In this document: positions 1 to 12,904 of the stretch, piece by piece
Position numbering within the stretch: position 1 is the stretch's first letter
Layout: every line of letters starts with the position of its first letter
Assembly: GCA_001794055.1 (NCBI GenBank)
Contig: MGJB01000002.1
Span: 1 to 46,933, forward strand
Reading direction: 5' to 3'
Source: Candidatus Yanofskybacteria bacterium RIFCSPHIGHO2_01_FULL_41_26
GTDB lineage: Bacteria; Patescibacteriota; Minisyncoccia; 2-02-FULL-40-12; GWA2-44-9
Length of the DNA stretch: 46,933 nucleotides
Notes under the pieces: generated by a model
What the model was told of the DNA's origin: nothing
The model's input: the letters and a program-made list of their open reading frames with translations, nothing else
Databases searched by the model: none
Position numbers and translations under genes: made by a program

Positions 1-475
1 GTCTTTATCAGACAAAGAACTTCTAATATTTACTTTGGCTTGATTGAATATGTCAATAATACCCAAAGCGATTCTTGCCTGCCTCTGCTTTAAAAGCAGA
101 TGGGGTAGTAATCGCTCAAGCGTTATTTTTAAATCCGATCGTTTCTGAATTACTAATTCAGACAAGTTATGAGTTCTTGTTTCTCTGACATTGCCAATAT
201 TGCCTAATGCTTTCTTGAGAAGAAACATCATGTTCTTATGTCTCACGTGTTGCGTAAAATTTATTTTTAATCTTACGCGAAAAGGAAATCTTCTTCTACC
301 AGGCAACTTTTCAACATGTGCGCTAATAGAACCATCTCCATCTAAAAAGCCGGCAATATACCCATCAGATACATATTTACTATTAACTTCCCATGGCGTT
401 GTCTCCATATATGGTAATAATATCATGCCCGTAAATTTACGGATACAATATTTATCAACAGAAGGTTTCACCATT
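1..475 (-). CDS. LAGLIDADG homing endonuclease inside the 16S rRNA intron (C-terminus runs off window)
   Basis: Minus-strand ORF from ATG at 475 open to the window edge; translation MVKPSVDKYCIRKFTGMILLPYMETTPWEVNSKYVSDGYIAGFLDGDGSISAHVEK... contains the LAGLIDADG-like motif YIAGFLDGDGSI. Absent from the ORF track because it runs off the edge. Confidence 0.88.
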
Positions 476-532
476 ATAAGCTAGATTTTACTAAGAAATT
501 ACTTTCTTAGGAGACTACTTTTATTTAATCTC
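1..532 (-). other. Intron/intervening sequence in 16S rRNA (partial)
   Basis: 16S similarity stops after ...GATGGAACTGAGA (E. coli about 323-327) and is replaced by AT-rich sequence, a hairpin CTAAGAAA-GTAA-TTTCTTAG (about 493-512) and the endonuclease ORF. Confidence 0.85.
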
Positions 533-837
533 AGTTCCATCGTTGAGGGTCGTGCTCTCACACCCCCTACCCGTCATAGCCTTGGTGGGCCATTACCCCG
601 CCAACAAGCTGATAGGATCTAGGCCGCTTCCGAAGCGAATTGCTTCTTTACCCTTACGAGACTATCGGAAATTAATTCGCCTTTCGGCGAGTTATATCCG
701 ACTTCGGAGTACGTACCAAGATGTTACTAACTCGTTCGCCGTGGTGTCAAAGTATTGCTACTCTGCGCCACTCGACTTGCATGACTTATCCGTGCCGCCA
801 GCGTTCATCCTGAGCCAGAATCAAACTCTCTTAAAAA
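529..837 (-). rRNA. rrs: 16S rRNA 5' exon (about first 325 nt)
   Basis: Reverse complement contains AGAGTTTGATTCTGGCTCAGGATGAACGC and GGCCCACCAAGGCTATGACGGGTAG...GGAACTGAGA, conserved 16S 5'-domain sequences. Confidence 0.95.
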
Positions 838-1267: not shown

Positions 1268-1477
1268 CTAAAACAGAATTGCCGAAAGAAGAAGAGTCAT
1301 TAGCCATGATTCATAATAGCTAATCTGTCGAAAGTTAAATAATTGTGGCAATAGTTCTGGCAGAAATATATTCCATACCAGCATCAGTAAAAGAGCTTTA
1401 ATCGGTGACACCATGAGTGTCACAAAGACTAACTTAAGGGTCTTTTCAAGAGATTTTGCCACCCTGTCTCTGAACAT
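1268..1477 (-). CDS. Small hypothetical membrane protein (69 aa)
   Basis: ORF with upstream AGGAGGAGG-like RBS; hydrophobic segments. Confidence 0.65.
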   Translation of the reverse strand: MFRDRVAKSLEKTLKLVFVTLMVSPIKALLLMLVWNIFLPELLPQLFNFRQISYYESWLMTLLLSAILF

Positions 1478-1553
1478 CTAAACCTCCTCCTGCTTTCAAT
1501 CTATTTTATAATATACACGATAACTTATGCCGTGTCAATATCAAACGTATCAA

Positions 1554-2246
1554 CTATCTAGATTTTTTGGTCCTCCACTCTTCTATGCTTTTATGGTTCC
1601 CGGAAAGCAAAACTGGGGGTACTTTCAGCTTTTTTCCGCCCAACATAAACACTTTAGGACGAGTATAATGAGGGTGCTCTCTATAAGAGTTTACAGTTTT
1701 CAGTTTACTGTTTACAGAAACAGAGAAGCTTTCATTTTTTATAGATTCTTCTTTGGCAACCACTCCCGGAATCAATCTTAAAATGGTTTCAATTATTACC
1801 ATCGTAGGAACTTCTCCGCCAAATAAAACATAATTTCCAATGGATATTTCTTCATCGGCAACATGTTTGGCAACTCTTTCATCTACTCCCTCATAGCGCC
1901 CACAGATAAAAATTATCTGGTCATATTTGGCTAATCTTCGAACATCATTTTGGGTAAATGTTTCCCCCTTAGCTGATAGTAGGATTGTCCTCGTTTTACG
2001 TTTTACGCTTTTCGCTTTTCGCTTTAAAAATTGAACCGCTTTCCAGATGGGTTCAATTTTTAAAACCATCCCCGCTCCCCCACCATATGGCCGACCGTCT
2101 ACGGTCTTATGATTATCATCAGTCCATTTTCTTAAATTATGTAAATTTATTTTTATCAGTTTTTTCTTCTGCGCCCGCGCCAAAAGCGACTCGCTGACGA
2201 ATCCTTTAAATAAGTCCGGAAAAATTGTGATGATATCGAATTTCAT
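1554..2246 (-). CDS. trmD: tRNA (guanine-N1)-methyltransferase TrmD
   Basis: MKFDIITIFPDLF...DGRPYGGGAGMVLK...IFICGRYEGVDERV...EISIGNYVLFGGEV...HYTRP: TrmD signatures. Confidence 0.95.
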   Translation of the reverse strand: MKFDIITIFPDLFKGFVSESLLARAQKKKLIKINLHNLRKWTDDNHKTVDGRPYGGGAGMVLKIEPIWKAVQFLKRKAKSVKRKTRTILLSAKGETFTQNDVRRLAKYDQIIFICGRYEGVDERVAKHVADEEISIGNYVLFGGEVPTMVIIETILRLIPGVVAKEESIKNESFSVSVNSKLKTVNSYREHPHYTRPKVFMLGGKKLKVPPVLLSGNHKSIEEWRTKKSR

Positions 2247-2422
2247 GAATTTAATATTATACCATAAAAATAGGAATTAAAAAGCAATCTCGCTCCGCCC
2301 CATCATTTTTCTGATCATAATCCTCATCTCGTCATTCGCTTCAAGATATTAGTTTTTTGTTTGATCTTCTCTTGCTAAATATCACCTGTCACCAAAACGG
2401 ACTTTGGCGGAGGGCGTGTGCC

Positions 2423-2465
2423 AATACAATGGGGGTCTTTGTGATACAAAGACCCCCATTGTATT
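2423..2465. repeat. Perfect 19-bp inverted repeat
   Basis: AATACAATGGGGGTCTTTG-TGATA-CAAAGACCCCCATTGTATT. Confidence 0.85.
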
Positions 2466-2477
2466 TCTGAAATGTTG

Positions 2478-2514
2478 CAACCAAAAACCGCCGAAAAGGC
2501 GGTTTTTGGTTGGG
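2478..2514 (-). terminator. Rho-independent terminator after khpA
   Basis: Minus strand AACCAAAAACCGCC-TTTTC-GGCGGTTTTTGGTT. Confidence 0.75.
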
Positions 2515-2516
2515 AT

Positions 2517-2837
2517 TTATAAATTACCCAATTCCCCCATAACGTCATCAACATTCTTTGTCTTTCCGACTGGTGCAACTCTGCCACCTTCCGGTTCCTC
2601 AATCTTGAGGTTAACTCTGGCGTTGTTTCTCATCCCAACAATTCTTGCCAAAGTTCTGACGGCCTTTGCGGTTGAACCGCTTCTTCCGATAAGCAATCCC
2701 ATATCTTCGGGAGCTACTTTGACTGTAAGCAAGACACCGAGTTCATCAACAGTCCTGTCTACCTTTACAGCATCGGGATTGTTGACGATTTCTTTTATAA
2801 TAAACGTAACAAATTCCTGATCTCGATCTTTAGCCAT
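2517..2837 (-). CDS. khpA: KH-domain RNA-binding protein (KhpA/YlqC-like)
   Basis: DMGLLIGRSGSTAKAVRTLARIV: GxxG KH motif; about 106 aa; next to trmD. Confidence 0.9.
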   Translation of the reverse strand: MAKDRDQEFVTFIIKEIVNNPDAVKVDRTVDELGVLLTVKVAPEDMGLLIGRSGSTAKAVRTLARIVGMRNNARVNLKIEEPEGGRVAPVGKTKNVDDVMGELGNL

Positions 2838-2955
2838 TTTTCATAAACTGGTCTTTCAACTATAGTTCAAATATATTCAACAATAGCCGATTTTCCAGTA
2901 AATTATTATCTTTCGACCAAGCCCATCAAACAGGCTTTATTATTAATATCTTACT

Positions 2956-5370
2956 CTAAATCACGATATTTGTCAATCGATTTTTGACGTAAATAAATTT
3001 CTTTATATCTTTTCCAACAAGATATTTTTTGATATTTTCGTTGCCCAAAACGATTCTTTTTACCTCTTCCTCCGATAATCCTTTTGTAATTTTCAGTACG
3101 TCTCGTTTTGTTCCATTTACCTGGATAACTAAATCAACTGGGCCATCTATTAGTAACGCTTCATCGTATTGAGGCCAGGCTTCAAGGTGAATAGATTTTT
3201 TATTTTTCAAAACGGTCTGCCAAAGCTCTTCGGTGATGTGTGGTGCAAAAGGCGCAAGAAGTTTGAGAAATGTTCCAAACTGTTTTTTTGTTAGCCACTT
3301 GTCTTCTAAAGCATTGAGGAGTTTCATCAATCCGCTCACTCCGGTATTGAATTTCAAATCCCTGATGTCGCCCCCTATTTCTTTCGTGGCTTTATTCAAT
3401 ATTTTATCAACCTCTTTGTCAGATACCTTGGGTTCTGTCGGTTTATCTATAAAATTCCAAATCCTGTTTAAAAATCTGAAGACTCCTTGAATTCCATCGG
3501 TATTCCACGGTCCGCCTTGGTCATATGGCCCCATAAACGACAGATACATTCTTATTGTATCAGCGCCGAATTTTTTAACCTCAATGTCCGGATCTACAAC
3601 ATTACCCCGCGATTTAGACATTTTCTGGTTATCAGGACCGAGAATTACTCCGTGATTTCTACGAGTCAAATACGGCTCGTCAAAATCCAAATAGCCCAAA
3701 TCGTGCAGGGCTTTAGTAATAAACCTTGAATATAAAAGATGCATGGTATTATGCTCCGCTCCACCGATATACAGCGGTACCGGCAGCCATGCCCGCAGTT
3801 TTTTCTTATCGGCAAACTCTTTTTGATTAATAGGGTCGGCATAACGCAGGAAATACCAGGATGAATCAACAAAAGTATCCATGGTATCGGTTTCTCTTTC
3901 GGCATCCTGTCCACATTTGGAACATTTAGCCATTGTCCAACCTTCTGCTTTTGCTAAAGGAGAACGGCCGTCGTCGGTGGGTTTAAAATCCTCAAGCACA
4001 GGAAGCTCAACTGGCAAATCTTTTTCCGGAACTGGCTGATAGCCGCACTTGTCGCAGTGAATCATCGGTATCGGTACGCCCCAGTATCTCTGGCGGGACA
4101 AAACCCAGTCATGCAATTTGTAATTCTTTTTAAAATCGGCCAAGCCCTTCTCCTTTAATTTATCTACAATTTTTTTCCGGGCTTCTTTAGAAAACACGCC
4201 TTCAAATTCTCCGGAATTAATTAAATCTCCCTCGTCTTCATATGCGCCGTCTTCCGTTCCTTCTGGTTGTGCCATTGCAACAACCTTTTCAATAGACAAA
4301 TCAAATTTCTTGGCAAAGTCCCAATCCCTCTCATCATGTGCCGGAACAGCCATCACTGCTCCTGTTCCATACCAACCGATAACATAATCGGCAACCCAGA
4401 CAGGAATCTTTTCGTTATTAATCGGATTAACAACATACCCGCCCGTATTCACACCTGTTTTGGATTTATCAATATATAAACGCTCAATCTCTGTTTTATT
4501 TTTTACCTCTTCCAGATACTTATTTATGGTATCCAAGTTTTCATCTTTGGTAAGTTTTGTTACCATCGGATGCTCGGGAGCAAGAACAAGATATGTCGCA
4601 CCAAATAAAGTATCGGCGCGGGTAGTGAACACTTCTATATATTCCTGGCCCCCTTTTGAAAATTTAGAATTGAAAATTGGAAATTTCAAAAGCGCCCCCT
4701 CGGAACGGCCTATCCAGTTTCTTTGGGCAACCCTGACTGTTTCCGGATAATCAACTTTATCCAAGTCGTCAAGCAACCTATCGGCATAATCCGTGATCTT
4801 AAACATCCATTGGAAGAGTTCTTTTTGTTCAACTTCTGTTCCGCATCGGTCACAATGACCGTCTTTGACCTGTTCATTGGCCAACACTGTTTTATCTTTC
4901 GGACACCAGTTTACGAAAGTCTTTTCTCTGTATGCCAATCCTTTTTCGTACATTTTTAAAAAAATCCACTGCGTCCACTTATAGTATGCGGGATCAATAG
5001 TTGAAACTGCCCGGGACCAATCAAACATAGCCCCTGTGTTCTTTAATTGCTTGGTCATTTGCTTGATATTATCTTCCGTCCAGTCGCGAGGATTAATGTT
5101 CCTCTGAATGGCCGCGTTCTCCGCCGGCAGGCCGAAAGCATCAAATCCGGTCGGATACAAAACATTATGTCCGGTCATTTTCAAATAGCGGGCCAAAATA
5201 TCGGGCACCGAAAATGCCAGCCAGTGGCCGATATGGAGATTGCCGGAAGGATAGGCAAACTCCGTAAGCAACATATAATTGTTTTTTCCTTCTTTTGTAT
5301 GATAAAACTTCTTGGCTTCCCAATATCTCTGCCATTTTTTTTCAATTTTTTCGGGATTGTATTTAGGCAT
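2956..5370 (-). CDS. leuS: Leucyl-tRNA synthetase
   Basis: FAYPSGNLHIGHWLAF (HIGH), MSKSRGN (KMSKS), LeuRS domain layout, 804 aa. Confidence 0.97.
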   Translation of the reverse strand: MPKYNPEKIEKKWQRYWEAKKFYHTKEGKNNYMLLTEFAYPSGNLHIGHWLAFSVPDILARYLKMTGHNVLYPTGFDAFGLPAENAAIQRNINPRDWTEDNIKQMTKQLKNTGAMFDWSRAVSTIDPAYYKWTQWIFLKMYEKGLAYREKTFVNWCPKDKTVLANEQVKDGHCDRCGTEVEQKELFQWMFKITDYADRLLDDLDKVDYPETVRVAQRNWIGRSEGALLKFPIFNSKFSKGGQEYIEVFTTRADTLFGATYLVLAPEHPMVTKLTKDENLDTINKYLEEVKNKTEIERLYIDKSKTGVNTGGYVVNPINNEKIPVWVADYVIGWYGTGAVMAVPAHDERDWDFAKKFDLSIEKVVAMAQPEGTEDGAYEDEGDLINSGEFEGVFSKEARKKIVDKLKEKGLADFKKNYKLHDWVLSRQRYWGVPIPMIHCDKCGYQPVPEKDLPVELPVLEDFKPTDDGRSPLAKAEGWTMAKCSKCGQDAERETDTMDTFVDSSWYFLRYADPINQKEFADKKKLRAWLPVPLYIGGAEHNTMHLLYSRFITKALHDLGYLDFDEPYLTRRNHGVILGPDNQKMSKSRGNVVDPDIEVKKFGADTIRMYLSFMGPYDQGGPWNTDGIQGVFRFLNRIWNFIDKPTEPKVSDKEVDKILNKATKEIGGDIRDLKFNTGVSGLMKLLNALEDKWLTKKQFGTFLKLLAPFAPHITEELWQTVLKNKKSIHLEAWPQYDEALLIDGPVDLVIQVNGTKRDVLKITKGLSEEEVKRIVLGNENIKKYLVGKDIKKFIYVKNRLTNIVI

Positions 5371-12606: not shown

Positions 12607-12901
12607 CGCGGGGTAGAGCAGCGGCAGCTCGTCAGGCTCATAAGAAATTGTGACCTATCATAGAAATGTGGTATGGAAAAACTTTCGAAATTGCCGGAAA
12701 CCCGATTGTCTTGCAAAAGACGTAGGGCAATCAGCAGCGAAATCTTTTGATAAACAAAAGAGACGTTCAGAGACTATAATGGAAGCATCCCTCCCCAGTT
12801 TTCCCAAACTGGGGAGGGATGATGGGATAGTCCGACACTGTCAGTAATGGCAGCAAACAGCCAGAACCTGAAGGTCGTGGGTTCGAATCCCACCCCCGCA
12901 A
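12607..12901 (+). tRNA. Initiator tRNA-fMet (CAT), interrupted by group I intron (12642-12864)
   Basis: Exons CGCGGGGTAGAGCAGCGGCAGCTCGTCAGGCTCAT + AACCTGAAGGTCGTGGGTTCGAATCCCACCCCCGCAA; C1:A72 mismatch of initiator tRNA; close to E. coli tRNA-fMet. Confidence 0.94.
12642..12864 (+). other. Group I intron (about 223 nt, no ORF)
   Basis: R-like GTTCAGAGACTATA (about 12765-12777) and S-like GATAGTCC (12826-12833) pair as P7; 5' exon ...TCAT pairs with GTGA in the IGS with U.G at the splice site; intron ends in G; GGGCAATCAGCAGCGAAATC resembles the P/Q region; perfect 16-bp P8-like hairpin CATCCCTCCCCAGTTT-TCCC-AAACTGGGGAGGGATG. Confidence 0.9.
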
Positions 12902-12904
12902 CAT

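Follow-up and report, generated by a model that had tools for sequence, protein, structure and literature searches.

The closest solved relatives of the protein considered here are I-MsoI and I-CreI, the endonucleases of group IA3 introns in the LSU rRNA of green algal chloroplasts. Like it, both have a single LAGLIDADG motif, but they belong to another rRNA gene and another site and are only distantly similar in sequence. Much nearer in host are the LAGLIDADG group I introns already published from the rRNA genes of CPR bacteria, or Patescibacteria (Tsurumaki et al. 2024, PMC11270868). The portions of that paper drawn on here report insertions in 48% of CPR 16S genes, with group I introns at sites 16IS4-7 and 10, and experimental cleavage of its own site by a LAGLIDADG enzyme that a CPR 23S insertion encodes. 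As far as those portions go, the introns described there share with ours the hosts, the 16S gene, the group I core, a single-motif LAGLIDADG_1 protein and a proposal of homing, and the 16S positions named in the main text are 1400 and 1498, although 328/329 may be one of sites 16IS4-7; the screen given there used Rfam at E 1e-5, a setting that would miss the same-site introns tested here. The archaeal IA3 and IB4 group I introns of Nawrocki et al. (2018, PMC6125680), which a structure-aware search brought to light, likewise interrupt rRNA genes and carry LAGLIDADG genes, but their sites are LSU 1923, 1931, 2500 and 2593 and SSU 1498, with none at SSU 328. Group I introns, IA3 included, also occur in the 16S genes of another bacterial group, the giant sulfur bacteria (Salman et al. 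2012, as cited in PMC4853749), which belong to a different phylum. A literature search for introns at position 328 or S329 found no paper. The intron described below is a good example of an already known phenomenon, and a clean case of it: one intron lineage, at one base, in many Patescibacteria.

The interrupted 16S rRNA gene

The window, by which we mean the whole stretch of DNA analysed, is the entire contig C2 (46,933 bases) of an 18-contig Patescibacteria genome bin. At its left end, all on the minus strand, lie an exon, an insert and an ORF:

528..828, minus strand: 16S rRNA 5' exon, E. coli about 9 to 328, final base T528 (RF00177; 23 intron-less relatives)
1..527, minus strand: very probable group I intron, 5' part, ended by the contig end (complete same-site introns in relatives; covariation; fold z -3.3)
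1..408, minus strand: LAGLIDADG_1 homing endonuclease gene, probable start METTPWEV, 136 codons, 3' end past the contig (PF00961; same-site homologues; I-MsoI/I-CreI)

RF00177 matches window positions 828-301 (minus strand, 174 bits, E 2e-51), and genuine 16S homology stops at 528, short of the end of that match at 301. The bin contains neither the remainder of the intron nor that of the 16S gene. The sole full 16S there, at 1454-3071 (minus strand) of the 5.7 kb contig C4 (L002), matches the archaeal model RF01959 (1379 bits); it is a contaminant that would assign the bin the wrong 16S identity. This has a practical side: the intron splits the 16S gene in Rfam searches, and the search of its own genome reported only the contaminant. 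The insertion also lies just upstream of the 338F/341F primer region, and an intron of about 0.7 kb lengthens amplicons that span the site from an upstream primer. No group II intron family reached its gathering score in the window with Rfam, and the phage records searched yielded ordinary 16S fragments only.

The same insertion in other Patescibacteria

Relatives were gathered from a search of the order, a contig scan of genomes and two wider genome searches. At least 17 further Patescibacteria loci carry this insert at the identical base, giving 18 introns with that of the window once duplicates are excluded. Host bins are labelled Yanofsky-, Sung-, Nomura-, Kaiser-, Levy- and Daviesbacteria, with further groups besides. 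The search of the order alone gave three same-site endonuclease homologues, 53-78% identical to the window protein (73-78% for the full-length ones). Complete inserts measure 700-792 nt in the 15 relatives where length was taken, and in all complete relatives listed the last base of the intron is a G, directly before ACGG. The first-pass annotation had predicted a 3' exon beyond the contig end, and had said that its absence would point to a chimeric assembly; the exon does resume after the insert in 16 of 17 relatives, the exception being L068.

At L068 / L024 (relative G042) about 40 bases are missing from the start of the 3' exon, right after the intron, and the near-identical L067 keeps them; the gap is either an assembly error or a damaged copy. 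L067 is labelled Levybacteria and L068 Yanofskybacteria, but their sequences do not differ near the junction, and one of them may be a mis-binned copy from a single organism. L025 and L026 (relatives G003 and G011) have another LAGLIDADG-like ORF, about 250 aa long, further along the 16S locus, so two or more introns are probably present in each of these 16S genes.

The exact site follows from comparison of interrupted and uninterrupted genes. In 23 of 23 intron-less relatives of the same order the exons are contiguous, as ACTGAGA[T/C/A]ACGG, and intron-bearing relatives read ACTGAGAT, then the insert with its final G, then ACGG, that is, ..GAGAT-intron-ACGG... Since the two sets together fix this arrangement, T528 corresponds to E. 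coli 328 and is the last exon base; by numbering from the 338F motif, the junction is placed between E. coli 328 and 329. The interruption of the 16S gene noted from the sequence is real, and its position, first given as 323-327, moves by 1-5 bases to 328/329. The reading of GAGA as intron sequence (site 323) is ruled out by the same exon sequence, and its placement, earlier called ambiguous, is settled by the relatives on the exon side. The same-genus genome G012, tried as a control, has a contig that stops 26 bases before the insertion site and is hence uninformative. The insertion point is in the terminal loop of helix 12 of the 16S rRNA; where no intron is present, the site forms a 14/22 palindrome whose centre lies two bases before that point.

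The group I core

The helices of the window strand, and the first strands of those completed beyond the contig, are as follows:

511..532, minus strand: P1, exon GAGAU (532-528) with guide GUCUC (515-511), U328.G at the splice site (window fold; exon/guide covariation)
491..510, minus strand: P2 hairpin, CUAAGAAA-GUAA-UUUCUUAG (DNA 510-491, CTAAGAAA..TTTCTTAG) (window fold; relatives have a hairpin of variable sequence at this place)
480..484, minus strand: P3 5' strand CUAGC, partner GCUAG past the contig end (in relatives, both bases differ at 4 of 5 pairs)
393..474, minus strand: P4, AUGGUG (474-469) with CGCCAU (398-393) (covariation; window fold)
403..464, minus strand: P5, CUUC (464-461) with GGAG (406-403), the endonuclease AUG (408-406) at its 3' strand (covariation; fold)
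390..392, minus strand: P6 5' strand GGG, partner CCC downstream of the ORF in relatives (invariant in 16 of 16 sequences, so that covariation is uninformative)

Folded alone, the window strand forms P1, P2, P4 and P5 (z -3.3), and the hairpin seen at first reading, at 510-491, is present as P2 of the intron. The window holds the 5' half only; P6', P7, P3', P8 and P9 are deduced from the complete introns of relatives.

For the comparison, we aligned core blocks of the window and of 15 complete relatives without gaps on a model of P1, P3, P4, P5, P6, P7 and P8 (31 pairs). The cells of this core are paired in 95.4% of cases against 87.3% after shuffling (0/500), a percentage flattered by the choice of the blocks by hand, and pairing falls to 35-44% when the partners are slid. 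Changes on both sides of a pair, which are less affected by that choice and are the stronger evidence, number 47 cells in 12 pairs against 17.5 expected from shuffles. They are found in P1, P3, P4, P5 and P8. P3 alone appears as CUAGC/GCUAG, UCUGC/GCAGA, CCUGC/GCAGG, CUUGC/GCAAG, UCAAC/GUUGA and CCAAC/GUUGG, and in P4 the window has AUGG/CCAU where 15 of the 15 relatives counted have ACGG/CCGU, a compensatory change from C-G to U-A (pair 33-63: CG 15, UA 1). P7, with its S-type element, reads GACU / ..ATAGTC in 15 of 15 complete relatives and, being invariant, is uninformative as to covariation. P6, once thought to be missing, was recovered when P4' and P6 were located within the first codons of the ORF. 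Inspection revealed no evident P10. Two hairpins lie between P7 and P3' in relatives, again by inspection, the interval in which subgroup IA3 has its hairpins P7.1 and P7.2; these suggest subgroup IA, and the intron is probably IA3-like.

A check against the Rfam group I model, proposed along with the original reading, stayed below threshold: RF00028 matches four relatives where expected, at 22.7-30 bits, short of the gathering score of 50, and the insert of the window is not reported at that score. All same-site introns tested fall below it, probably because the ORF splits the core; the score is a cut-off of the model rather than a property that defines group I introns biologically. Complete elements at the same base in relatives, together with the covariation of the core, bear out the proposal of a group I intron in the 5' domain of the 16S gene, and we regard the insert as very probably the 5' half of such an intron, mobile and probably IA3-like, between E. 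coli 328 and 329.

The endonuclease gene

The LAGLIDADG endonuclease ORF recognised in the insert at first reading is upheld by a match of its protein to PF00961 (LAGLIDADG_1; E 3.5e-9), to I-MsoI in the PDB (E 4e-31 and 1e-14) and to I-CreI (E about 1e-9). It has a single LAGLIDADG motif, with the catalytic GFLDGDG intact. Going by the alignment, translation probably starts at 408, 66 bases inside the ATG at 474; the latter was rejected as the start because it falls within P4 and because, in the alignment, proteins of relatives begin METTPWEV or MKTTPWEV. L079 has a frameshift in its same-site endonuclease gene but an intact intron core; this endonuclease is decaying.

The gene is situated in loop L6, and both of its ends run into the ribozyme. 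Its first few codons contain P5', P4' and P6, and in relatives the last codons of the ORF (..NPVTT) coincide with P6' and P7. At P4'/P6, ACCGTGGGAAGT is unchanged in relatives despite a different protein frame (ETTPWEV or GNTVGS), so the constraint acts on the RNA. ORFs that reach into the core of a ribozyme are an arrangement already described (PMC3984707).

The splice-site pair and the host base

Exon base 325 and its partner in the guide swap together, as A-U or C-G; L076 and L077, otherwise very similar, differ at 325 and at its guide partner. The splice-site pair itself has two forms: 13 members have U328.G and 5 have C328.A, and the form follows the host base at 328, with at least two changes of pair on the endonuclease tree. 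To our knowledge a natural C.A pair at the splice site is unusual, U.G being normally near-universal. In vitro, C.A can substitute for U.G. A search of the open-licence literature for natural C.A splice pairs found nothing useful, and the dimorphism that tracks the host base may be a new detail.

A larger proposal is that this is a family in which U.G and C.A forms are interchangeable and track the polymorphism of the host at 328, and in which splicing and enzyme synthesis are mutually exclusive; we put it forward tentatively, as possible but rather doubtful. The family raises two questions in this regard: whether natural C.A pairs are as good as U.G, and whether folding of the ribozyme blocks translation of an endonuclease whose gene starts in P5'.

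Proposed mechanism and alternatives

From these parts we infer a cycle of splicing, cutting and homing, with competition between folding and translation. In the pre-rRNA the guide GUCUC would pair with exon GAGAU, and a guanosine held at P7 would attack after U328; the freed exon would then attack after the terminal G of the intron, rejoining ..GAGAU/ACGG.. so that the ligated exons would read ..CTGAGATACGG... The missing 3' half would be expected to hold CCCCGTAACGACT, the P3' strand GCTAG, the terminal G and the 3' exon ACGGTTCCAT, predicted from helix 12. As a homodimer, the endonuclease would cut the pseudo-palindromic intron-less 16S gene at helix 12, and repair off an intron-bearing copy would spread the intron. 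Since the ends of the gene are written through helices of the core, folding of the ribozyme and translation of the enzyme are probably competing fates of the precursor.

Three other explanations of the insert have to be weighed against an active group I intron. A chimera of a 16S fragment with an unrelated endonuclease gene might be suspected from a contig that ends inside the insert, with the remainder absent from the bin and a contaminant archaeal 16S contig present in it, but an identical junction, homologous on both sides, recurs in 17 other loci of independent assemblies; the chimera has a negligible probability and is, for practical purposes, refuted. That the insert is an intervening sequence, cut by RNase III without rejoining to give a fragmented 16S rRNA, is very improbable. 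Its location in the hairpin loop of helix 12 is common for such elements, and those reported in these bacteria, in the portions of PMC11270868 drawn on here, are mostly in 23S; against this, the covariation of exon with guide and within P3, P4 and P5, together with the terminal G, fits self-splicing introns and would be unexpected in an RNase III element; the length of the insert, its homing endonuclease gene and the constancy of its junction also weigh against this reading.

A degenerate or inactive remnant, its core still recognisable but its endonuclease or ribozyme defunct in this organism, we regard as unlikely. It draws on the end of the window copy at the contig end, with the 3' half out of view, and on the relatives with a frameshifted endonuclease (L079) or without the start of the 3' exon (L068). 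The window ORF, however, is open over its 136 codons with GFLDGDG intact, the compensatory change in P4 shows a helix that was under selection in this lineage, and an inactive intron in the sole 16S copy would probably be lethal.

Other probable introns in the bin

The window holds a further interrupted RNA gene, an initiator-like tRNA-Met(CAU) at 12607-12903 (plus strand), for which ARAGORN made no call; its anticodon arm holds a compact group I intron (RF00028 at 12630-12854, 81 bits). Elsewhere in the genome, tRNA-like genes with a group I-like interruption lie at about 1483-1984 (plus strand) of contig C16 of G000 (L005) and at about 1096-830 (minus strand) of contig C12 of G000 (L006), with RF00028 scores of 47.6 and 41.7 bits respectively, just below threshold. 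Taken with the interrupted tRNA-Met, these two loci make tRNA introns seem common in this genome.
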